DNA from: Actinoplanes sp. L3-i22
Lineage (GTDB): Bacteria; Actinomycetota; Actinomycetes; Mycobacteriales; Micromonosporaceae
Assembly (NCBI RefSeq): GCF_019704555.1
Contig: NZ_AP024745.1
Span: 9,060,501-9,124,500 of the forward strand
Reading direction: 5' to 3'
DNA length: 64,000 bases
Numbering within the stretch: position 1 is the first letter of the stretch; each line of letters starts with the position of its first letter. Below the pieces are notes generated by a model that was not told the DNA's origin, did not search any database, and saw nothing but the letters and a program-made list of their open reading frames with translations. The translations under genes were made by a program, and so were the position numbers. This document shows, piece by piece, positions 30,385-41,190 of the stretch.

Positions 30385-31653
30385 GTGCTGTACTTCTTCC
30401 TGAGCTATGCCCGCGGCGGCGACGACGTTTACGTGCGACAGTTCTTCAGCGACTTGTGCCACGAGGTTCGCGTGCTGGAAGGCCTCGGCCGCGACGTCGA
30501 GGTCGGTTTTCTGGATGCCCGCAACATCCATCCAGGTCAAGCGTGGTCCGAGTCGCTGATCGACGCGCTGGCCCAGAGCCGGTCGTTTCTCGCGCTCTGT
30601 TCCCCGGCCTACTTTCTCAGTGAGCCGTGCGGCAAGGAATGGGCGATCTTCGAGGAGCGGGTGGAGGAGCACGAGCGCCGCACCGGCCAGCGACCACCGG
30701 GCCTGATCCCGCTGCAGTGGCTGCCACCGCGCACGCTGCCGCCCACCGCGGCCCGGATCCAGTACTTCGAGGAGCCGGTGGGCGCCGGCCAGCAGGCCGA
30801 CCAGCGGTTGCGCGGGATCCGCCAGCTGCTGCGCCTGCAGCGCAACCGGGACGACTACCTGGAGTTCGTCACGCTGGTGGCCGAGCGGGTGGTCGAGGCC
30901 TCGCTGGTCGACCCGATGCCGCCGATGCAGAACGAGCGCCGGCAGCGGTTCGAGGCGGTCGCCAGCGCGTTCCACAAGCCGGTGCCGGTGCACGCCGGCG
31001 CGGTCAACGGGGTGCAGCCCGGCCCGATCGCGGACGTCGAGATGCCGATCTCCCGCAAGGTCTACTTCGTGATGTCGGCGCCGACCCGGGTGGAGGCCGA
31101 GGACGAGGAGCTGGGCCGCCGGGACCGGCGCTTCTACGGCGACTCGGCGCCGGACTGGGCGCCCTACCGGCCCAGCTCCGAGGAGGCGCTGGCCAGCTAC
31201 GCGACCCGGATCGCCCACGAGCGCAGCCTGCTCGCCGACGTGATCGAGGTGGGCGAGCTGGAGCAGTGCATCGCCCGGGCCGAACGCGACAACCAGATCG
31301 TGGTGCTGCTGGTCGACCCGTGGAGCACCCAGATGCCGCGCTATCACGAGATCCTCAAGGACTACGACGGCCGGGACGAGCCGTCGGCCGCGGTGATGAT
31401 CCCGTGGAGCCGCGACGACTCCGAGATCCGCGACAACGCCCAGCGGCTGCACAACTCGATCAACGAGACGTTCCCCCGCAACGTGCGCAAGCCACCCAAC
31501 ACGCTCTTCCGCCCGGCGGTGATGTCCACCGAGATCTTCGGCGCCGACCTGCACGTGGTGCTGGAGGAGTCCCGGAACCTGGTGATGGCCAAGGGCCGGG
31601 CGCGGCGGCCGTTGCCGGACCCGCCCAGCAGCCGACCCGTCATCGAGAGTTAG
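30385..31653 (+). CDS. fxsC: TIR-domain protein FxsC of the Fxs RiPP locus
   Basis: 422 residues. The N-terminal TIR domain (1 to about 160) begins FFLSYARGGDD and keeps a cysteine/glutamate pair C82-x-x-E85 in the position of the NADase catalytic Glu. A long linker leads to the C-terminal FxsC domain (about 240 to 400; QIVVLLVDPWSTQMPRYHEIL, then VMIPWSRDDSEI). The exact role in Fxs loci is unknown. The GTG start has GGAGA 4 to 5 bases upstream. The stop is 9 bases before fxsT, whose AGGAGG site overlaps this stop, so the two are an operon. Confidence 0.88.
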   Translation: MLYFFLSYARGGDDVYVRQFFSDLCHEVRVLEGLGRDVEVGFLDARNIHPGQAWSESLIDALAQSRSFLALCSPAYFLSEPCGKEWAIFEERVEEHERRTGQRPPGLIPLQWLPPRTLPPTAARIQYFEEPVGAGQQADQRLRGIRQLLRLQRNRDDYLEFVTLVAERVVEASLVDPMPPMQNERRQRFEAVASAFHKPVPVHAGAVNGVQPGPIADVEMPISRKVYFVMSAPTRVEAEDEELGRRDRRFYGDSAPDWAPYRPSSEEALASYATRIAHERSLLADVIEVGELEQCIARAERDNQIVVLLVDPWSTQMPRYHEILKDYDGRDEPSAAVMIPWSRDDSEIRDNAQRLHNSINETFPRNVRKPPNTLFRPAVMSTEIFGADLHVVLEESRNLVMAKGRARRPLPDPPSSRPVIES

Positions 31654-31662
31654 GAGGCGACG

Positions 31663-34600
31663 ATGAGCAGCGGTCACATCGTGACGTTCTACTCGTACAA
31701 GGGTGGCACCGGGCGCACCATGAGCGTCGCCAACATGGCCTGGCTGCTCGCCGCCAACGAACTGCGGGTGCTGGTGGTCGACTGGGACCTGGAGTCGCCC
31801 GGGCTGCACCGCTACTTCCACCCGTTCCTGCTCGACAAGGAGCTGGCCGCCTCGCCGGGCGTGATCGACATGGTGCGCGACTTCGCCTCGACGGCGATGG
31901 AGCCCGATCACACCGACTCGCGCGACTGGATCCGCGAGCACGCCGCGGTGCTGGACTACGCCGTCTCGCTGAACTACCGGTTCCCCGGCAAGGGCGGCAT
32001 CGACCTGCTGCCGGCCGGGCGGCAGGACCAGTCCTACGCACGCAGCGTCAGCACGTTCGAGTGGCCCAACTTCTGGGACCGGCTCGGCGGTGGCGCCTTC
32101 ATCGAGGCGCTGGCCAAGGACATGCGGGCCAACTACGACTTCATCCTGATCGACAGCCGGACCGGGCTCAGCGACAGCGCCGGGATCTGCACGATCCAGC
32201 TGCCGGACACCATCGTCAACTGTTTCACGTTCAGCACGCAGAGCATCGACGGCGCGGTCTCGGTGGCGCACTCGGTGACCAAGCAGCGCGGCCAGCGCAC
32301 GGTCCGGATCCTGCCGGTGCCGATGCGGGTGGAGAACTACGAGGCGTCCAAGCTGGAGGCCGGCCGCGACTACGCCCGCCAGGAGTTCCGCTCCTTCCTG
32401 ACCGAGCTCGGCGACGAGCTCGACCACTACTGGGGCGACGTCGAAATTCCCTACAAACCCCTCTATGCGTACGAGGAGATCCTGGCCACGATCGCCGAGC
32501 GTCCCCTGGTGGAGAACTCGGTGCTGGCCTCCTACGAGCGGCTGGCCGGCTGGCTCACCGACCGTCAGGTGACCAGTCTGCCGCCGCTGGACGAGGAGAC
32601 CCGGCGCAAACTGCTCGTCCAGTTCGAGCGGCGCCGGCCGACCACCAGTTACGACGTGCTGATCAGCTACGCGCCGGTGGACCGGATGTGGGCCGAGTGG
32701 GTCGCCTCGGAGCTGTCCGCGGTCGGGCTGCGCGCCCAGCTGTGGGACATCGACTTCGTCTCGGTGAACCAGGCCCAGGAGCTGGCCCGGTCGCTGGCCG
32801 GGGTCCGGTTCGCCCTGCCGCTGCTGTCCAAGGAGTACGTGCACTCGCCGCACGCGGGCGCGGTGTGGCAGCAGTTCTCCAACGTGGGCTCCGGCAGTCG
32901 CGTCCCGGTGATCCCGGTGCGCCTGGACGGCACGCATCTGGACTGGCCGTTCACCACGCTGCAGCCGGTCGACGTGACCGGCGCGACCGCCGAGCGCGCC
33001 CGGGAGCTGCTGCTGACCGCGGTCGGCAGCGCGCCCACCGCGGCGCCGGCCCGGCGTACCGGCCCCCGGTTCCCCGGCACGCTGCCGCCGATCTGGAACG
33101 TGCAGCAGCGCAACTCGGCCTTCACCGGCCGTGGCAGCGTGCTGGCCCAGCTGCGGGAACGGCTCTCGGCCAGCATCACCACCGTCGTCCCGCAGGCCCT
33201 GTTCGGCCTCGGCGGCGTCGGCAAGACCCAGCTCGCGCTGGAGTACGCGCACCGGTTCGCGGCCAACTACGACGTGGTGTGGTGGATCTCCGCGGAGCAG
33301 CCGCACATGGCCCGCTCCTCGCTGGCCGAGCTCGGCCGGGCGTTGCAGCTGGAGGGCGGCGACAACCTCGACGAGGCGGTGCGCATCGTGCTGGAGGCGC
33401 TGCGCCAGGGCCGGCCGCACCAGCGCTGGCTGATCATCTTCGACAACGTCGACCGGCCCGAGGAGATCCGGCACCTGATCCCGCAGGGGTCCGGGCACGT
33501 CCTGCTGACCTCGCGCAACCAGGCGTGGAACGAGGAGAACCGGGCGCTGCAGCTGGGCGTGTTCACCCGGGAGGAGTCGGTGGCGATGCTCAACCGCCGG
33601 CTGCCGCAGCTCGACCCGGAGGAGGCCGGCCAGGTCGCCGAGCGCCTCGGTGACCTGCCGCTGGCGATCGAGCAGGCGGCCGCCTGGCTGACCGCCACCG
33701 GGATGCCGGTCACCCAGTACATGGAGCTGCTCGACACCCAGCTGATCCGGGTGCTGGACGAGAACCCGCCGCTGGGCTACGAGAAGACCACCGCCGCCAC
33801 CTGGCTGCTCTCGCTGGACCGGCTGCGCCAGACCAAGCGGGCCGCCGCGAAGCTGCTGGAGGTCTGCGCGTTCTTCGCGCCCGAGCCGATCTCCACCAAG
33901 CTGATCTACAGCAGCCGGTTCACCCAGGTGCTGCTGCCGCACGACCCGAGTCTGCGGGACCCGATCCTGCAGGGGCAGCTGCTGCGCGAGATCGGCCGGT
34001 ACGCGCTCGCCACCCTGGACAACGCCCGCACCGGCATGCAGATCCACCGGCTGGTCCAGGCCGTCATCCGCAACAGTCTGACCGAGTCCGAGCAGGCCGC
34101 GAACCGGGCGGACGTGCAGATGATCCTGGCCACCTACGAGCGGGGCGCGCCGGAGAACCCGGAGAACTGGCCGTCGTACGCCCTGATCTGGCCGCACCTG
34201 CGGGCCTCCGGGGCGCTGGAGTCGGCGGACCCGGCGGTCCGGCAGCTGGTCTCGGACATGGCCCGCTATCTGGAGCAGCGCAGTGACTACTCCAGCAGTC
34301 AGGAACTGGCCGAGAACGCGCTGGCGATCTGGCATGATCGCTTCGGCGAGGACACCGCGACGGTGCTGCTCACCTTCCACATGGCCAACGCGCTGCGCTG
34401 GCAGGCCCGCTACGAGGAGGCCTACGCGGCGGACAGCCGGGTGCTGGAACGGCTGACCGAGACCGAGGGCCCGGACCACCCGTACACGGTGATCGTCGCC
34501 GGGAGCGTGGGCGCCGACCTGCGCGCCCTGGGCCGGTACGAGGAGGCGCTGGAGATCTCGGAGAGCGCGCGGACCCGGGCGCTCGACGTGTTCGGCGACG

Positions 34601-35553
34601 CCGACGACCGTACGCTCAAGGCCGCGATGAACCTGGCCGTGTCGCTGCGGCTGGTCGGCAATTTCGCCAAGGCCGCGGAGATCGACGAGAGCGTGGTGAT
34701 GGACCGGCAGCGGTACTTCGGGGCCGACTATCCGATGACCCTGCAGGCCACCGACAACCTGGCGCACGACTACCGGGCGCTGGGCCGGTTCCGCGAATCC
34801 CGGGGTCTGCTGGAGCGAATCCTGGAACGCTACCGGGAAGTGCTGGGACCGGGCGCCTCCCTGACCTTGCGGACTGCCAAGAGCCTGGCCGCCACGCTGC
34901 GCAAACTGGGCGAGTTCAACGCGGCGCACGCCCTGACCAACGACACTCTGCGCCGCTACCGCGAAACGGTCGGCCTGGAGCACCCGGAGGCGCTGTCCTG
35001 CCTGATGAACCGGGCCTGCGAGGAGTCCGCGCTGGACGACCACCGCCGGGCCCGGGTGACCGCCCAGCAGGCGGTCGACGGCTTCCGGGCGGTGTACGTG
35101 ACGAATCACCCGTTCGTCCTGGCCGGGGCGAACAACCTGGCGATCTTCACCCGCCTGGCCGGCCACGTCGAGGAGGCCAAGACCCTGCACAACGAGGTGT
35201 ACCGGGCGTTCCTCGAGGTGCTCGGCGAGCGGCATCCCTATACGCTGTCCACCCAGGTCAACCTGGCCAGCGACATGTACGAGGACAGCATGTTCGACGC
35301 GGCCCGGGAGATGGACGAACGGAGCGTGGCGACGATGCGGGAGGTGCTCGGTGAGGACAACCCGGACACGCTCGCGGCCGCCGCGAACCTGGCGATCAGT
35401 CGCCGCAAGGTCGGCGACATGGCCGCGGCGGAGGAGCTGCGGGTCGACACGCTGCGGCGGGCCAAGCGGGTCCTCGGGGAGACCCATCCGACCGTGCTCC
35501 TGATGTCCGAGTCGCGGCGCCTCAACTGCGACATCTCGCCCCCGCCGAGTTAG
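31663..35553 (+). CDS. fxsT: FxSxx-COOH system TPR/NB-ARC/TIR protein FxsT
   Basis: 1296 residues, four modules. Residues 1 to 310: ParA/MinD-like P-loop (YSYKGGTGRTMS, with Arg where Lys is usual; VVDWDLESPG is the switch region). Residues 327 to 430: TIR domain (YDVLISYAPVDRMW), whose catalytic-Glu region reads SPHAGAVWQQF, so no Glu. Residues 480 to 750: NB-ARC with Walker A GLGGVGKTQLA, Walker B WLIIFDNVD and DLPLAIEQA. Residues 870 to 1290: about ten 42-residue TPRs. It looks like a cytosolic STAND sensor. It belongs with FxsC and the RiPP genes in known Fxs clusters, but its task there has not been established to my knowledge. Confidence 0.92.
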   Translation: MSSGHIVTFYSYKGGTGRTMSVANMAWLLAANELRVLVVDWDLESPGLHRYFHPFLLDKELAASPGVIDMVRDFASTAMEPDHTDSRDWIREHAAVLDYAVSLNYRFPGKGGIDLLPAGRQDQSYARSVSTFEWPNFWDRLGGGAFIEALAKDMRANYDFILIDSRTGLSDSAGICTIQLPDTIVNCFTFSTQSIDGAVSVAHSVTKQRGQRTVRILPVPMRVENYEASKLEAGRDYARQEFRSFLTELGDELDHYWGDVEIPYKPLYAYEEILATIAERPLVENSVLASYERLAGWLTDRQVTSLPPLDEETRRKLLVQFERRRPTTSYDVLISYAPVDRMWAEWVASELSAVGLRAQLWDIDFVSVNQAQELARSLAGVRFALPLLSKEYVHSPHAGAVWQQFSNVGSGSRVPVIPVRLDGTHLDWPFTTLQPVDVTGATAERARELLLTAVGSAPTAAPARRTGPRFPGTLPPIWNVQQRNSAFTGRGSVLAQLRERLSASITTVVPQALFGLGGVGKTQLALEYAHRFAANYDVVWWISAEQPHMARSSLAELGRALQLEGGDNLDEAVRIVLEALRQGRPHQRWLIIFDNVDRPEEIRHLIPQGSGHVLLTSRNQAWNEENRALQLGVFTREESVAMLNRRLPQLDPEEAGQVAERLGDLPLAIEQAAAWLTATGMPVTQYMELLDTQLIRVLDENPPLGYEKTTAATWLLSLDRLRQTKRAAAKLLEVCAFFAPEPISTKLIYSSRFTQVLLPHDPSLRDPILQGQLLREIGRYALATLDNARTGMQIHRLVQAVIRNSLTESEQAANRADVQMILATYERGAPENPENWPSYALIWPHLRASGALESADPAVRQLVSDMARYLEQRSDYSSSQELAENALAIWHDRFGEDTATVLLTFHMANALRWQARYEEAYAADSRVLERLTETEGPDHPYTVIVAGSVGADLRALGRYEEALEISESARTRALDVFGDADDRTLKAAMNLAVSLRLVGNFAKAAEIDESVVMDRQRYFGADYPMTLQATDNLAHDYRALGRFRESRGLLERILERYREVLGPGASLTLRTAKSLAATLRKLGEFNAAHALTNDTLRRYRETVGLEHPEALSCLMNRACEESALDDHRRARVTAQQAVDGFRAVYVTNHPFVLAGANNLAIFTRLAGHVEEAKTLHNEVYRAFLEVLGERHPYTLSTQVNLASDMYEDSMFDAAREMDERSVATMREVLGEDNPDTLAAAANLAISRRKVGDMAAAEELRVDTLRRAKRVLGETHPTVLLMSESRRLNCDISPPPS

Positions 35554-35750
35554 TCATCTGATATCCCTCGCCAGGGGATCGCTTCCCGCAGTCGTACGAC
35601 TACCCAGAGAAAGGCAGGCAGCTCAACCTATTTGTCCGATCCACGAGCCCGAGTCGGCTGGTCAGCCGTCTCGCGGTTCGGTGCTGCCGTGTTGCCGAAA
35701 TGTGGTTTACTTGGGCGTCTTTTCTAAAGTCCAACTTCATCGAGGACCGC

Positions 35751-35936
35751 ATGCCCAGGACGCTTGGTGACGACCAGATCGTCACTTCAGAGCTGGTCGA
35801 CTTGTCGCACGTCCGGCTCCTGGAGCTGCGTGAGAGCGATGTCCCGCCCGCTCTTCAGGCGGTTATCGACGACATTCTCGAGTCCTCCGAAGAGATCTTC
35901 CCGTTCGGTTCCTACGCCGACCGCCCCACCGGCTGA
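35751..35936 (+). CDS. fxsA: FxsA-type cyclophane RiPP precursor with extended C-terminus
   Basis: 61 residues from the ATG at 35751, with GAGG 6 bases upstream; an in-frame ATG at 35700 lacks a ribosome site. The leader matches the family (LVDLSHVRLLELRESDVPPALQAV). The C-terminus is F52-G-S-Y-A56 followed by DRPTG, so the canonical FxSxx motif is present but not terminal. FGS and YAD are consecutive aromatic-x-Ser/Asp triplets of the type joined by three-residue-cyclophane radical SAM enzymes. The last 25 bases overlap the 3' end of the HExxH gene on the other strand. It lies 197 bases after fxsT. Confidence 0.8.
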   Translation: MPRTLGDDQIVTSELVDLSHVRLLELRESDVPPALQAVIDDILESSEEIFPFGSYADRPTG

Positions 35937-37549
35937 CCCTGCATCCAGCCCGCGACCGTCGCCGGATCGGCGCCGTCCTCGCGGGCTGACCTGTGCAGCA
36001 CGGCCCGGGCCAGGTCCGGCCGGTCCCGCAGCACCGGCCGCCGCGGCGCGGCGTCACTGACCGCGAGCGCGAACCCCACCCAGGCGTCGTCGGTGTCGTT
36101 CAGGCGCTTGGCGTACAACTCGGCCGCCAGCTCCAGATCCCCGCTCAGATAGGCGTGGTCCGCCGGATCCTCGGCCTGACCGCCGGTCAGCACGTCGCGG
36201 AGCACGCCGACGATCCCCGGAAGGTGCAGCGGCTCGTTGCGGGCCGCACCGCGCAGCCGGCCGGCGCTCGCGACCGGGCCCAGCGCACGTCCGGACCGCC
36301 AGGCCGCCAGTACCGCGTCCACCTCGGCGTCGGCCGGCGACCAGTTCCTCGAACGCCACCGGATCGTCTGCGCCCGGACCATCGCCGCCACCAGCGCCAC
36401 CGTCCGGCCGGGCAGCTCCGGGTCCGGCCACGCGGCCAGCGTGTCGCGCAGGAGCCCGACGAACCGTGTGCCCTGCGCGGTCAGCTCGTCGCTGCCGGCC
36501 AGTTCGTCGGCGGCCAGGCCGCTCTGGCGGTGCCAGTACGAGAACTCCACGTCGGCGATCGCCGGCGCGCCCGCGTCCCGGCGGCGCTGCCGCCAGTAGT
36601 CGGTGACCCCGGTGTGCGCGTAGACGCCCTGCAGCAGCGCCGGAACCGGACGCGGATCCATCCGCCACGGCGCGTAGTGCCGGCCCACCGGGCTCTTCAC
36701 GTGCAGGGGCGTCAGATCCCGCAGCGCGTCCAGCTTCATGTGCATGAACTCGTGCAGCAGCAGCAGGCACAGGTTCTCCGCCTCCGGGGGGATCACCACG
36801 GCGACCGAGCCGGAGGCCCGGCGCGAGGCCGCGCTGACCAGGTCGCCGGAGGGCGGGGTGGCCAGCGGCACGACCATGGTCAGCAGCACCCGCATCGCGG
36901 CCGCGTGCTCCGGATGCCGGCGCACCAGGATCGCCCAGGCCGCGCGCAGCAGCTCCGCGAACCGGTCGGCGGCCGGCTCGTCGAGCCGCGGCTGCGGACG
37001 CCACTGGTAGGTGTCCCGGTACAGCTCCTGGTCCTCGACGACGATCGAGTAGCCCGGCTCCAGCTCGACCCGCCGGGTGGCCGCCCAGCCGGGCCCGCCG
37101 AGCCGCACCGGGCCGATCCGGGTCGTCCCGTCCGCCGCGCCGGTGACCTCGACCCGGTCGCCGGTGACCGTCGCCGCGCCCAGGGTCGGCAGGTGGACCG
37201 AGCCGCCGACCACCGGCACCTCGATCGTGAAGGTCACCCCCGCCCGGACCGCGGCCGCCGCCGCGACCTGCGCCAGATAGCCCAGGTCGCCGCCGGACTT
37301 CAGCGCCTGCCCGAGGCCGGCGTCGAGGTGCGGGTGCCGCAGCACCTGCTCCACCGCCGCCGGATCCCGCTGCTCGGCCCGGATCAGCAGGTCGATCGCG
37401 GCGGCCGAGGCCGGCATCGCCATGATCCGCTGCAGCAGCTGCTTGCGCTTGGTGAGCTGGACGGCGCGCAGGACGGCGAGCGCGTCCGGGGTGCCGTAGC
37501 CCGCGCCCAGCCCGTCGAACTGGGCCGTGGTGAGCGTGAAGCCGGTCAT
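35912..37549 (-). CDS. HExxH-type peptide beta-hydroxylase of the Fxs locus
   Basis: 545 residues. Begins MTGFTLTTAQFDGLGAG, and the metal-binding motif LLLHEFMHMK is at about residues 263 to 272 (His 266, Glu 267, His 270). This matches the family of HExxH peptide-modifying proteins that sit next to radical SAM maturases and are thought to hydroxylate the RiPP precursor with 2-oxoglutarate. The ATG overlaps the FxsB stop by four bases (ATGA), so both enzymes are coupled; a longer upstream frame is the antisense of fxsB. The 3' end overlaps the precursor gene, whose Tyr55 codon on the other strand forms this stop codon. Confidence 0.85.
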   Translation of the reverse strand: MTGFTLTTAQFDGLGAGYGTPDALAVLRAVQLTKRKQLLQRIMAMPASAAAIDLLIRAEQRDPAAVEQVLRHPHLDAGLGQALKSGGDLGYLAQVAAAAAVRAGVTFTIEVPVVGGSVHLPTLGAATVTGDRVEVTGAADGTTRIGPVRLGGPGWAATRRVELEPGYSIVVEDQELYRDTYQWRPQPRLDEPAADRFAELLRAAWAILVRRHPEHAAAMRVLLTMVVPLATPPSGDLVSAASRRASGSVAVVIPPEAENLCLLLLHEFMHMKLDALRDLTPLHVKSPVGRHYAPWRMDPRPVPALLQGVYAHTGVTDYWRQRRRDAGAPAIADVEFSYWHRQSGLAADELAGSDELTAQGTRFVGLLRDTLAAWPDPELPGRTVALVAAMVRAQTIRWRSRNWSPADAEVDAVLAAWRSGRALGPVASAGRLRGAARNEPLHLPGIVGVLRDVLTGGQAEDPADHAYLSGDLELAAELYAKRLNDTDDAWVGFALAVSDAAPRRPVLRDRPDLARAVLHRSAREDGADPATVAGWMQGQPVGRSA

Positions 37550-38772
37550 CGGGCCACCCGGAGATCCGCGGTGACCCGCGACTGGATGTGCCGGATCAAC
37601 GCGTAGAGGTCGTCGCAGTACGCGGACGGGTTGTCGTACGACCCGTCCCGGAACCGGTGCGCCCGCAGGCCACCGCCGCAGACCGCGACGACCGGGCACT
37701 GCAGACACTGGGCACCCAGCGGCGACGGCGTGTCCACCAGGGCCAGCACGTCGTCGAGCGAGTCGGTGAGCACGCTCAGGCCGGTGGCGGCGGCGCCGTT
37801 CTCGGTGGTCCGCAGCGAGTCGGTCGCCTCGTACGAGCCGTCGGTCTCGATCACCACCACGCCGGTCTGGTCGCCGCCGATCGCCTCGGTCGCGCTGTGG
37901 CCGCCGAGCAGGCGCATCATGATCGACTCGAAGAGGCGGATGCGGGTGCGCAGCTCGGGGCCGCCGTACCAGTCGTCGAAGATCGCGATCAGCCAGTCCG
38001 CGTACGACATCGCCCCGGCCGGCCGCGGTGGCGGGTTGGTCCAGTTGCCGTGCGGCAGCAGCAGGTCGATCAGCGGCGGCTCGAAGGCGAGCAGGTCACG
38101 GTAGGTCTGCACCGGGTCGTTGCGGACGTCGATCGTGCACAGCAGACCGCTGTAGACGGCACGGTGCTCGGGGCGGGCCAGCAGGCGCAACCCGGTCGCG
38201 GTCTGGTCGTAGGAGTCGCGGCCGTTGGCGTAGACCCGGTGCCGGTTGGCGGCCCGGCCACCGTCCAGGCTGACCCCGACCCGGACCCCGAACTCGTGGA
38301 AGATCTCCAGGAAGCGCTGGTCCAGCAGGATGCCGTTGGTCTGCATGCCGAACCGCACACGGGTCCCGGCCGGCACCGCGTCGCGCAGCTCGCGCAGCAG
38401 CGCGGCGGTCCGGTCGGGCCCGGCCAGCAGCGGCTCGCCGCCGTGCAACACGATCGACAGCGACGGCGGGCGGTGGCGCAGCACGTGCTCCCGGACGCGC
38501 TCGCCGATCCGGGCCGAGGTCGCCGCGTCGATCGTCAGCGGCTGGCGCTTCCAGGAATCGTCCACGCTGTGATAGACGTAGCAGTACGTGCAGGAGAGGT
38601 TGCAGCGGCTGTGCACCTTGAGCACGATCTGCCGAACGGTGTCGGGCACGCGTGAAATAGTGCCAGCCGCCCGCGCCCGCCGGAACAGAAACGCCGTGAC
38701 ATCACCCACCCGGCCATCGTCAAAAATTGAACGAATCGGGCGCAAAGCCGCCGGACCGCGATAGCCGGGCAT
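37546..38772 (-). CDS. fxsB: radical SAM/SPASM cyclophane maturase FxsB
   Basis: 408 residues from the upstream ATG. The N-terminus before residue 42 is not conserved-looking and no ribosome site is seen; the GTG at 38649 (VPDTVRQIVLKVHS) is an equally good start, giving 367 residues. Radical SAM core: CNLSCTYC (Cys 57, 61, 64) for the first [4Fe-4S], then LHGGEPLL and GMQTNGILLD. The C-terminal SPASM region has CLQCPVVAVCGGGL and a later Cys for auxiliary clusters. It should form Phe-to-Ser carbon-carbon cyclophane links in the precursor. Coupled by ATGA to the hydroxylase; 60 bases from the divergent GGDEF-EAL gene. Confidence 0.9.
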   Translation of the reverse strand: MPGYRGPAALRPIRSIFDDGRVGDVTAFLFRRARAAGTISRVPDTVRQIVLKVHSRCNLSCTYCYVYHSVDDSWKRQPLTIDAATSARIGERVREHVLRHRPPSLSIVLHGGEPLLAGPDRTAALLRELRDAVPAGTRVRFGMQTNGILLDQRFLEIFHEFGVRVGVSLDGGRAANRHRVYANGRDSYDQTATGLRLLARPEHRAVYSGLLCTIDVRNDPVQTYRDLLAFEPPLIDLLLPHGNWTNPPPRPAGAMSYADWLIAIFDDWYGGPELRTRIRLFESIMMRLLGGHSATEAIGGDQTGVVVIETDGSYEATDSLRTTENGAAATGLSVLTDSLDDVLALVDTPSPLGAQCLQCPVVAVCGGGLRAHRFRDGSYDNPSAYCDDLYALIRHIQSRVTADLRVAR

Positions 38773-38832: not shown

Positions 38833-41190
38833 GTGACGTGGGAGAGGCTTCAGCCGACGGCTCAGCTGTACGTGCGGGCGGCCGCCGCCGTGGCGGTGCT
38901 CGGCACCCTCTGGTGCGTGGCCTACCTGGGCTTCGGCATCGGTGTCGAAGCGGTTGCGTACGTCTTCGCCCCGCTCGGCGGGCTGTTCGCCGCCCCGGCC
39001 GTGCGGCACCTGCTCCGGCGCAACCCCGCGCTCGATCCGGTCGCCGCCCGGTTCTGGCGGGCGATCCTGCTCGCCGTCACCGTGGTCGCCGGCGGTTACG
39101 CCTGGCTGGCGGTGGACATGCTGACCCACGCCGACCAGGCCGCCACCCGCAGCATGCCGGTGCCGGCCGCGGGCCTGGCCGCCCTCGGCTTCCTGATCGC
39201 GATCTGGGCGCTGGCCCGGGTGCCGATCGTCACCCCGAGCGGCGTCGAGCGGTGGCGGATGGCGCTGGACCGCACGATCGCGTTCCTCGGCTGCGCGGCC
39301 GTGCTGTGGTACGCCGGGCTCGCCCCGATGCTCTCGGCCCGCGAGCCGTGGAGTCCGCAGGCGATGGTCCTGGTCGGGCTCGGCCTGCTGGTCGCGGTGG
39401 GCGCGGCGACGAAGGTGTCGTACCTGGCCGACGGGCCGATCGACCGGGTCGCGATGCGGTTCGTCGCGGCCGCCGGCGGTGTGCCGACCGGGCTGTCCGC
39501 GGTGCTGGCGGCGCAGTTCGGCCTGATCGGCAGCGTCCCGGCGCAGACCATCGTGCTGCCGCTGGCCCCGCTGATGATCACGCTCGGCGTCGCCGCGCAG
39601 CTCCGCGCCGACCAGGGGCGGCGCGTGCCGGGCCGGCCCGGCTCGGTGCTGCCGTACCTGGCGATGATCCTGGCCGACGTGCCGCTGGTCGCCGTCGCGT
39701 TCGGCGCGCCGCTGCGCTGGCCGGTCCGGGTGGTCCTGGTCGCCGCGGTGGTGGTGACCGCGCTGGTGATGATCCGGCAGTACCTGGCGTACCGGGAGAA
39801 CGCCCGGCTGCTGCACACCTCCCGGGTCCAGGAGGAGCGCCTGCAGCACGAGGTCAGCCACGACGGCCTGACCGGGCTGGCGAACCGGGCGCTGTTCCGC
39901 GAGCGGCTGACCGCCGCGCTGGCCACCCCCGGCCCGGTGTCGGTGCTGCTGATCGACCTGGACGACTTCAAGACCGTCAACGACCTGCTCGGGCACGGGG
40001 TCGGGGACCGGCTGCTGGTCTCGGTCGCGGGCCTGCTGCGGGCCGCGGCGGGGGAAAAAGCCTTGCCGGTACGGGTCGGTGGCGACGAGTTCGCGGTCCT
40101 GCTGACCGGCGGCGACGACGATCCGGCGGACCTCGCCGTGGCGATCCTGGCCGCGCTCGCCCAGCCGATCAGCGAGCACCGCCTGCTGGTGCAGGCCAGC
40201 ATCGGGATCGCCGGCGCGGCCGGGCCGGAAGTCACCGCCGACACCGTGCTGCGCAACGCCGACGTCGCGTTGTACGCGGCCAAGCAGCGCGGCAAGGCCG
40301 GCTTCGTGCGCTACACCGACGGCATGGAGGAGCCGGTGCTGGCCCACATGCAGCTCGGCGGCGAGCTGCGGCGGGCCCTGGACGACGACGAGTTCCGGGT
40401 GGTCTACCAGCCGATCGTGCGGCTGGACTGCAACCTGGTGACCGGTGTCGAGGCGCTGGTGCGCTGGCATCACCCGACCCGCGGCGTGGTCAGCCCGGCC
40501 GAGTTCATCCCGGCCGCCGAGCGCACCGGCCTGATCGTGCCGCTGGGCCGGTTCGTGCTGCGCGAGACGTGCCGGCAGGCGGCCGCGTGGCTGGCCGAGT
40601 TCGGCCCGGACGCGCTGGGCGAGGCCGGGCTCAACGTGTCCCCCCGGCAGCTGCACGACCCGGACTTCGTGGCCGACGTGACGAGCGCGCTCGCCGACAG
40701 CGGGCTGCCCTGCGAGCGGCTGGTGCTGGAGGTGACCGAGTCGGCGGTGCTGCGCGGCCGGCAGGTCTCGCGCGCGCTGTACGAGCTGGACCGGATGGGC
40801 ATCCGGCTGGCCCTGGACGACTTCGGCACCGGCGAGTCGTCGCTGAGCCTGCTGCGGGCGTTCCCGGCCGCGATCGTCAAGCTGGACAAGTCGTTCGTCG
40901 ACGGGATCGAGATCGACGACGGTCAGCCGGCCGCCACCGACGCCCGGCGGGCAGTGGCCCGCGCGGTGATCCAGCTGGCGCACGCGCTGCGCCTGGACAC
41001 CGTCGCCGAGGGCATCGAGAGTCCCGAGCAGGTGGCCGCGCTGCTGGAGCTCGGCTACACCCGCGGCCAGGGCTTCTACCTGGGCGAGCCGATGACCGCC
41101 GGCGCGGTGTCCGGCCTGCTGGCCCGCCAGCGGTCGGTGGCGCCGCGGAGCGCGGACGAGAAAGTTGCCTTCCGGAGCCATGAACGATAG
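38833..41190 (+). CDS. membrane GGDEF-EAL c-di-GMP protein
   Basis: 785 residues. Residues 10 to 330 hold about eight to nine membrane segments without an obvious sensor domain. The GGDEF domain (about 345 to 500) has DGLTGLANRALF and an intact RVGGDEFAVL, but no RxxD I-site five residues before it (GEKA there). The EAL domain (about 515 to 760) keeps GVEALVRWHHP, the metal ligands in LDDFGTG, and DTVAEGIE. Both activities look possible. GTG start at 38833; the gene is divergent from fxsB. Nothing links it directly to the RiPP genes. Confidence 0.92.
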   Translation: MTWERLQPTAQLYVRAAAAVAVLGTLWCVAYLGFGIGVEAVAYVFAPLGGLFAAPAVRHLLRRNPALDPVAARFWRAILLAVTVVAGGYAWLAVDMLTHADQAATRSMPVPAAGLAALGFLIAIWALARVPIVTPSGVERWRMALDRTIAFLGCAAVLWYAGLAPMLSAREPWSPQAMVLVGLGLLVAVGAATKVSYLADGPIDRVAMRFVAAAGGVPTGLSAVLAAQFGLIGSVPAQTIVLPLAPLMITLGVAAQLRADQGRRVPGRPGSVLPYLAMILADVPLVAVAFGAPLRWPVRVVLVAAVVVTALVMIRQYLAYRENARLLHTSRVQEERLQHEVSHDGLTGLANRALFRERLTAALATPGPVSVLLIDLDDFKTVNDLLGHGVGDRLLVSVAGLLRAAAGEKALPVRVGGDEFAVLLTGGDDDPADLAVAILAALAQPISEHRLLVQASIGIAGAAGPEVTADTVLRNADVALYAAKQRGKAGFVRYTDGMEEPVLAHMQLGGELRRALDDDEFRVVYQPIVRLDCNLVTGVEALVRWHHPTRGVVSPAEFIPAAERTGLIVPLGRFVLRETCRQAAAWLAEFGPDALGEAGLNVSPRQLHDPDFVADVTSALADSGLPCERLVLEVTESAVLRGRQVSRALYELDRMGIRLALDDFGTGESSLSLLRAFPAAIVKLDKSFVDGIEIDDGQPAATDARRAVARAVIQLAHALRLDTVAEGIESPEQVAALLELGYTRGQGFYLGEPMTAGAVSGLLARQRSVAPRSADEKVAFRSHER

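Follow-up and report, generated by a model that had tools for sequence, protein, structure and literature searches.

The locus considered here raises the question of how an FxsA-like precursor comes to carry its FxS motif inside the peptide, and what the residues behind that motif might add to the product. It lies in a 64,000-nucleotide (nt) stretch of the Actinoplanes sp. L3-i22 genome (12.0 Mb, a single contig), hereafter called the window. The precursor gene, fxsA, occupies 35751..35936 on the plus strand and encodes 61 residues with the C-terminus E-E-I-F-P-F52-G-S54-Y55-A-D57-R-P-T-G61. We favour the account, which we judge fairly likely as a whole, that fxsA encodes a precursor of a triceptide-type Fxs system, that it belongs to a variant with paired aromatic triplets, and that its tail comes from a flipped fxsA overlapping fxsH. 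In the mechanism we propose, FxsB, a radical S-adenosylmethionine (SAM)/SPASM enzyme, would link Phe52 with the Ser54 beta carbon within F-G-S. FxsH, an iron/alpha-ketoglutarate HExxH enzyme, would then hydroxylate a residue whose identity the sequence does not reveal, and the product would probably work with the TIR/NB-ARC/TPR proteins FxsC and FxsT. A flip of fxsA between fxsT and fxsH would have run its 3′ end into sequence antisense to the end of fxsH, giving rise to DRPTG.

The fxsA gene and its homology

The gene runs from ATG at 35751 to TGA at 35934-35936, on the strand opposite to that of fxsH and fxsB. By direct reading, GAGGA at 35742..35746 (plus strand), 4 nt before the ATG, is a likely ribosome-binding site. 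An alternative in-frame ATG lies upstream at 35700; the start at 35751 is favoured because the orthologs described below are 63 residues long, with a start chosen by us. A scan of 35400-36000 found no sigma-70 promoter or terminator.

Homology was assessed with a custom hidden Markov model (HMM) of 90 other FxsA sequences, from which the window FxsA and its two orthologs had been left out. The window FxsA scored 15.8 bits. When the model was run over the 322 open reading frames (ORFs) of 30-170 residues in the window, fxsA read from its upstream start ranked first with 15.6 bits, the next ORF reaching 9.8. None of 500 shuffles of the window FxsA reached 15.8 bits (499 scored, maximum 13.1). 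The first 51 residues, with the last ten removed, still scored 13.8 bits, above all 499 scored shuffles; therefore, the homology extends to the leader, and the match depends on more than the FxS motif. The precursor shares with the family TIGR04268 this homologous leader and its neighbours FxsB and FxsT/FxsC. That family is defined by a C-terminal FxSxx with a free carboxylate, whereas seven residues follow FGS in the window FxsA.

Hmmscan with TIGR04268 gave no match to the window FxsA at E up to 10 (the curated cut-off is 28 bits, and HMMER filters lose most weak matches), nor was it among 45 TIGR04268 matches in its own genome, where 150 of 852 candidates were scored. This failure is not specific to the tail, because L192 (18.0 bits) and L193 (9.3 bits), two loci whose FxsA have ordinary FxSxx tails, also fall below the cut-off. 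The curated FxSxx-COOH model passed only one of nine validly tested FxsA (that of locus L151, 33 bits), and the paired-triplet variant lies outside its definition. An ordinary FxsA, that of L121 and not of the window, found no match in the PDB. Judged from its sequence, the ORF is a genuine FxsA-like precursor of a small, presumably cross-linked peptide, and the preliminary description of this DNA, which reported an FxsA precursor with an internal FxSxx followed by DRPTG, was right in ORF, frame and coordinates.

Paired aromatic triplets and the predicted rings

FxsA tails were surveyed at loci L112-L161 and L192-L330 and in the window, with 166 distinct FxsB, 101 with an automatic FxsA candidate and 65 without. 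The pattern was F-x-S/N followed by 2 to 26 trailing residues in precursors encoded upstream of FxsB on the same strand, except at four loci; other cores and shorter tails were left out. Curation reduced the 101 to 99 by dropping L195 and L288, which were judged to be chance ORFs. The cores of L142 and L143 were replaced by orthologous FxsA found by eye, those of L126, L133, L192, L204 and L211 were fixed, and the less certain rows L299, L320, L252 and L255 were kept. Three or more residues follow F-x-S/N in 48 of the 99 curated FxsA adjoining distinct FxsB, as in FGSFVAED, FASFVSTD, FSSFIDKS (from the same genome as the window), FNSFVDADL, FSNFMSVHPG and FGNFAPDDPGPI. The earlier premise that known FxsA end in FxSxx with a free carboxylate was thus too narrow.

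The length of the tail is linked to the residue that follows the motif (i+3, where i is the core Phe). This residue is Phe or Tyr in 36 of the 48 longer-tailed precursors and in 6 of the 51 with two-residue tails (p 8.6e-11 over rows). The link was retained when FxsB were clustered at 80% (27/38 vs 5/31, p 7.6e-6) or at 65% identity (12/17 vs 4/21, p 0.0026). Aromatic residues are rare elsewhere: beyond i+3 they fill 4 of 343 tail positions, and in the 35 residues before the core 39 of 3255. A comparison of independent pairs on the FxsB tree yielded 6 pairs, on average 3.3 in the same direction, 0.0 in the opposite direction and 2.7 without difference. As far as sequence comparison goes, back-to-back aromatic triplets are a recurrent FxsA variant in several lineages; the enrichment fits two adjacent rings and is no proof of them. 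No description of paired-triplet FxsA was found among the open-access literature matches listed, and the primary triceptide and ChlB papers may contain one.

A pass of the HMM over the loci without a candidate gave 20 matches at E up to 1e-4 (that of L234 was already in the set), which were kept outside the statistics. They include non-aromatic tails (e.g. L222, L246, L263), ordinary FxSxx ends (L235, L238) and paired triplets (L151, L159), and the genes of L151, L261 and L264 lie on the strand opposite to FxsB. The gene of L261 (L261:7583-7807, minus strand, Actinomadura sp. OS1-43; E 7e-5) is divergent from FxsB and encodes repeated aromatic triplets with the end YGSFTDEGVFPGFTEEGAFTDPPERDEDA. 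His replaces the core Phe in FxsA-like genes of L276, L279, L282 and L253 (AAHGTTP, AAHSSSP), the NHGST core of L253 being a weak match (E 0.0016). Loci L276, L279 and L282 have two FxsA-like genes each, one with Phe and one with His in L279 and L282. Loci L145, L147, L148, L149 and L150 each have two FxsB, with precursors mostly of the forms FxNFVS and FxN-F/Y-xG, and no HExxH gene was found beside FxsB at those tested.

The window precursor contains two such triplets, F52-G53-S54 (35904..35912, plus strand) and Y55-A56-D57 (35913..35921, plus strand). According to the available part of PMC11002830, rings of the three-residue cyclophane class span i and i+2, MscB joins Phe C4 to Ser C-beta, and YxdB joins Tyr C3 to Asp C-beta; therefore, FGS and YAD each match a known link. 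On this precedent, F-G-S is predicted to form a Phe-Ser cyclophane, and Y-A-D, with the recurrent aromatic at its first position, might form a second one. The same source reports more than one link type for single enzymes (XncB, OscB, YhhB), so that one FxsB making both rings would not be out of line. The preliminary description had proposed that one radical SAM enzyme could make two fused rings here. The fit of both triplets to the cyclophane pattern stands, and so does the possibility of a second ring; the rings would be adjacent and not fused, because F52-S54 and Y55-D57 have no residue in common.

Does FxsB close one ring or two? One hypothesis, to which we assign close to an even chance, is that F-G-S closes the sole ring, while the aromatic at i+3 serves in recognition or packing and the rest is a follower tail. 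It is favoured by the residue at i+5, which in 6 of 36 paired-triplet precursors is Gly, where no C-beta bond is possible, and in a further 4 is Pro (10/36 together), and by the residue at i+4, mostly hydrophobic in these precursors and in this like the final residue of ordinary FxSxx precursors. The single ring does not account well for the concentration of aromatics at i+3, when they make up about 1% of positions elsewhere in the surveyed precursors.

The alternative, plausible and in our estimate somewhat short of an even chance, is that FxsB makes adjacent rings Phe52-Ser54 and Tyr55-Asp57. The contrast in aromatic residues between longer-tailed and two-residue precursors speaks for it, and all 36 paired-triplet precursors have S, D, G, P, T, A or N at i+5. 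In addition, Tyr is kept after FxS in all three members of the window clade, Tyr-Asp and Phe-Ser links are made by other three-residue cyclophane enzymes (PMC11002830, as above), and ChlB, the best structure match of FxsB, is on record as a 'multiple cyclophane synthase' (a title cited in PMC12636437). Besides the Gly and Pro at i+5, the Ser and Pro that the two window orthologs carry at this position and the non-significant pair test argue against it. With the same reserve, paired-triplet FxsA might be a recurrent class, a two-ring Fxs variant, where a single FxsB makes two neighbouring three-residue cyclophanes; those of the window would be Phe-Ser and Tyr-Asp. If this is true, the product would have a rigid six-residue core of two rings, and the residues beyond it would be free to vary, even via gene overlap. 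The cores FGSYAD, FGSYVS, FSSFID, FNSFVD and FTNFVS provide a concrete set for testing two neighbouring rings by FxsB.

Flip of fxsA, the tail and the proposed hydroxylation target

FxsH was searched against 354 genomes of the family. Outside the window it matched best in Pseudosporangium ferrugineum DSM 45348 (G053, locus L142), at 60% over residues 5-536, followed by Amorphoplanes nipponensis NBRC 14063 (G037, locus L143) at 56%; the others at E up to 1e-60 reached 35-46%. The FxsB of these two orthologous loci are 71-74%, and their FxsT 74%, identical to those of the window. In the FxsB tree, a quick one with no mixture model and with long-branch warnings, the window groups with L142 and L143 (Shimodaira-Hasegawa-like approximate likelihood-ratio test, 100), and L193 of Dactylosporangium vinaceum (G147) comes next (99). 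The FxsA of L142 and L143 end in FGSYVS and FTSYLP, and that of the sister locus L193 in FGSAL. Therefore, PFxSYx is common to the group of three loci and DRPTG is not. When the full-length window FxsA was searched against 100 genomes, no further match had an E below 0.0057.

In L142, L143 and L193, fxsA lies downstream of fxsH in the gap that separates it from fxsT, and both fxsA and fxsH are on one strand. The window fxsA occupies the same gap on the other strand and is thus flipped relative to its relatives. As a result of this arrangement, the 3′ ends of fxsA and fxsH converge and overlap by 25 nt (35912-35936), which on the plus strand encode the last base of Ser and Y-A-D-R-P-T-G-stop, and on the minus strand the last FxsH residues and their stop codon. 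The TAC codon of Tyr55 has bases in common with the fxsH stop codon. The preliminary description had made no mention of the overlap with fxsH. The window FxsH has 32 residues after RPDL, as does that of G053, and the FxsH of G037 has 27; in L193, 24 residues follow RPEL (counted by eye). Apparently, then, the overlapped 3′ end of fxsH is native and the FxsA tail is the new part, and DRPTG is probably a by-product of the flip, with its presumed breakpoint, that set the end of fxsA antisense to that of fxsH. A conserved DRPTG subtype was considered and rejected: the sequence is in neither ortholog nor in the other surveyed candidates listed. The view of the FGSYADRPTG-type tail as a precursor subtype is accordingly not supported, and among the 100 genomes searched and the surveyed candidates listed, DRPTG was seen in the window only. 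More generally, overlap with an adjacent gene can determine how a peptide ends, and unusual C-termini of ribosomally synthesized and post-translationally modified peptides should be interpreted with caution. The FxsH of G053 ends in SSFGS (L142:7396-7426), which is like part of the FxS motif, probably by chance.

Several points weigh against the favoured account. In the pair comparison above, a few tail/aromatic pairings held one opposite pair, and the median p was 0.25, not significant because there are too few pairs; the Gly at i+5 also count here, and the ring chemistry is a prediction. With regard to the flip, the length of the FxsH end varies and its last residues are not conserved, so the nativeness of the overlapped fxsH end rests mainly on G053. 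A second convergent fxsA/fxsH pair, which does not overlap, exists at L151; therefore, the window arrangement need not be a recent accident. DNA similarity gave no clear trace of a flipped segment outside the coding part. It was weak and confined to the coding strand, where 1 of 100 shuffles (L142), 5 of 100 (L143) and 22 (L193) were as good; the figure ranged from 9 to 95 on reverse strands and in upstream parts. Nine pairs of inverted repeats of 10-18 nt, such as an 18-nt pair of 72% around fxsA, were found, none convincing as a mediator of the flip. Finally, no conspecific genome was found in which the fixation of DRPTG could be checked.

The added Asp57 had been suggested as the target of the hydroxylase, and we now consider beta-hydroxylation of this residue by FxsH unlikely. 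Among longer-tailed precursors, 21 of the 31 that go with FxsH have an acidic residue at i+3 to i+7, compared with 5 of the 17 that do not (p 0.016). On 8 independent pairs this row-level association was unsupported (mean 0.4 same, 1.0 opposite, 6.6 no difference), in an ancestry-corrected test of little power. Moreover, the closest orthologs (FGSYVS, FTSYLP) keep an HExxH-bearing FxsH with no Asp in the core, and FESSF cores beside FxsH also lack Asp. An error of frame or annotation is a very improbable source of the tail: it overlaps fxsH and TIGR04268 gives no match, but the FxsA leader, PFGSY and the tail lie in one open frame with no insertion or deletion required, and in-frame tails of like length occur at other loci.

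The locus and known systems

The window holds a complete Fxs locus of FxsC, FxsT, FxsA, FxsH and FxsB, in which all but FxsA score above the NCBI curated cut-offs. FxsC (30385..31653, plus strand) is a TIR-like protein with a TIR_2 domain (NF040588, 154 bits, cut-off 130; TIGR04276, 129 bits, cut-off 55). FxsT (31663..35553, plus strand; NF040586, 991 bits, cut-off 300) combines MinD/ParA-like, TIR, NB-ARC and TPR regions, as judged from Pfam domains. FxsH (35912..37549, minus strand; TIGR04267, 139.6 bits, cut-off 40) is a predicted alpha-ketoglutarate HExxH-type peptide beta-hydroxylase with the motif HEFMH; in the PDB it matches 22nu (E 5.6e-42) and, over the motif only, ChlH (8s5f, E 0.0013), with HExxH and PWRxDxRP conserved. 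FxsB (37546..38772, minus strand; TIGR04269, 417.9 bits, cut-off 370) is a predicted cyclophane-forming radical SAM/SPASM maturase, whose top solved-structure match is ChlB (9gm3, E 1.2e-64). Its CxxxCxxC motif (CNLSCTYC) and C-terminal Cys are kept in the three aligned orthologs, and its true start is perhaps about 40 codons further into the gene. The fxsB stop and fxsH start overlap (ATGA) at 37546-37549, which suggests translational coupling. A GGDEF-EAL gene (38833-41190) on the opposite strand begins some 60 nt from the start of fxsB. PADLOC reported nothing on the locus beyond a partial PDC-M28B match at the FxsT N-terminus.

The genus survey found HExxH-domain and FxsT-type genes above cut-off in 67 of 67 genomes and FxsB in 64 of 67. 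The source genome has further FxsA at L154, L156 and L152, ending in FSSFIDKS, FNSAL and FQSAL, and several Fxs systems therefore coexist in it.

Like the FxSxx-COOH precursors of TIGR04268, the window FxsA is short, with an FxsA-type leader, F-x-S near the C-terminus and FxsB, FxsC and FxsT as neighbours; it differs in having seven residues after FxS and not two, in being flipped and overlapping fxsH, and in its lack of a TIGR04268 match. A close parallel in gene arrangement is the FxsA of G057 (L151), with the end FDNYAGDPGEPDPTV, which is likewise convergent with the 3′ end of an opposite-strand fxsH and has a paired aromatic triplet and a long tail. Unlike the window precursor, it has Asn and Gly at the third positions, exceeds the TIGR04268 cut-off and does not overlap fxsH.

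With respect to chemistry, FGS and YAD correspond to the Phe-Ser and Tyr-Asp triplet types of the MscB and YxdB triceptides, whereas both links made by one enzyme on one precursor are not described in the accessible portion of PMC11002830. Other radical SAM clusters have precursors in which at least two cyclophane motifs, adjacent or repeated, are predicted, as in the window FxsA, but in the part of PMC9062424 at hand these belong to other enzymes, carry the motifs Aro-Xaa-Xaa-Asn and Tyr-Asn-Arg/His-Asn-Arg, and are predictions that do not concern FxsA. The fused ChlB/ChlH system (PMC12636437, in the sections available; PDB 9gm3, 8s5f) has homologous radical SAM and HExxH enzymes, with multiple cyclophanes according to the title and with Asp/His hydroxylation. 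FxsB and FxsH of the window are separate proteins, the likeness to ChlH is limited to the motif, and the comparison is one of enzymes and not of precursors.

The gene content of the locus agrees with that of the standalone actinobacterial TIR/AP-ATPase/TPR systems of PMC7159879. In the part of that work available, they comprise the same gene set, namely a small FxSxx protein, an HExxH protein, a radical SAM-SPASM enzyme and an AP-ATPase with a MinD/ParA-like domain. There the HExxH protein is taken as a peptidase, whereas its NCBIfam name is now that of a beta-hydroxylase, and the peptide is suggested to amplify a conflict system, as either a toxin or a signal. By analogy, this suggests a conflict-system role for the peptide of the window FxsA.
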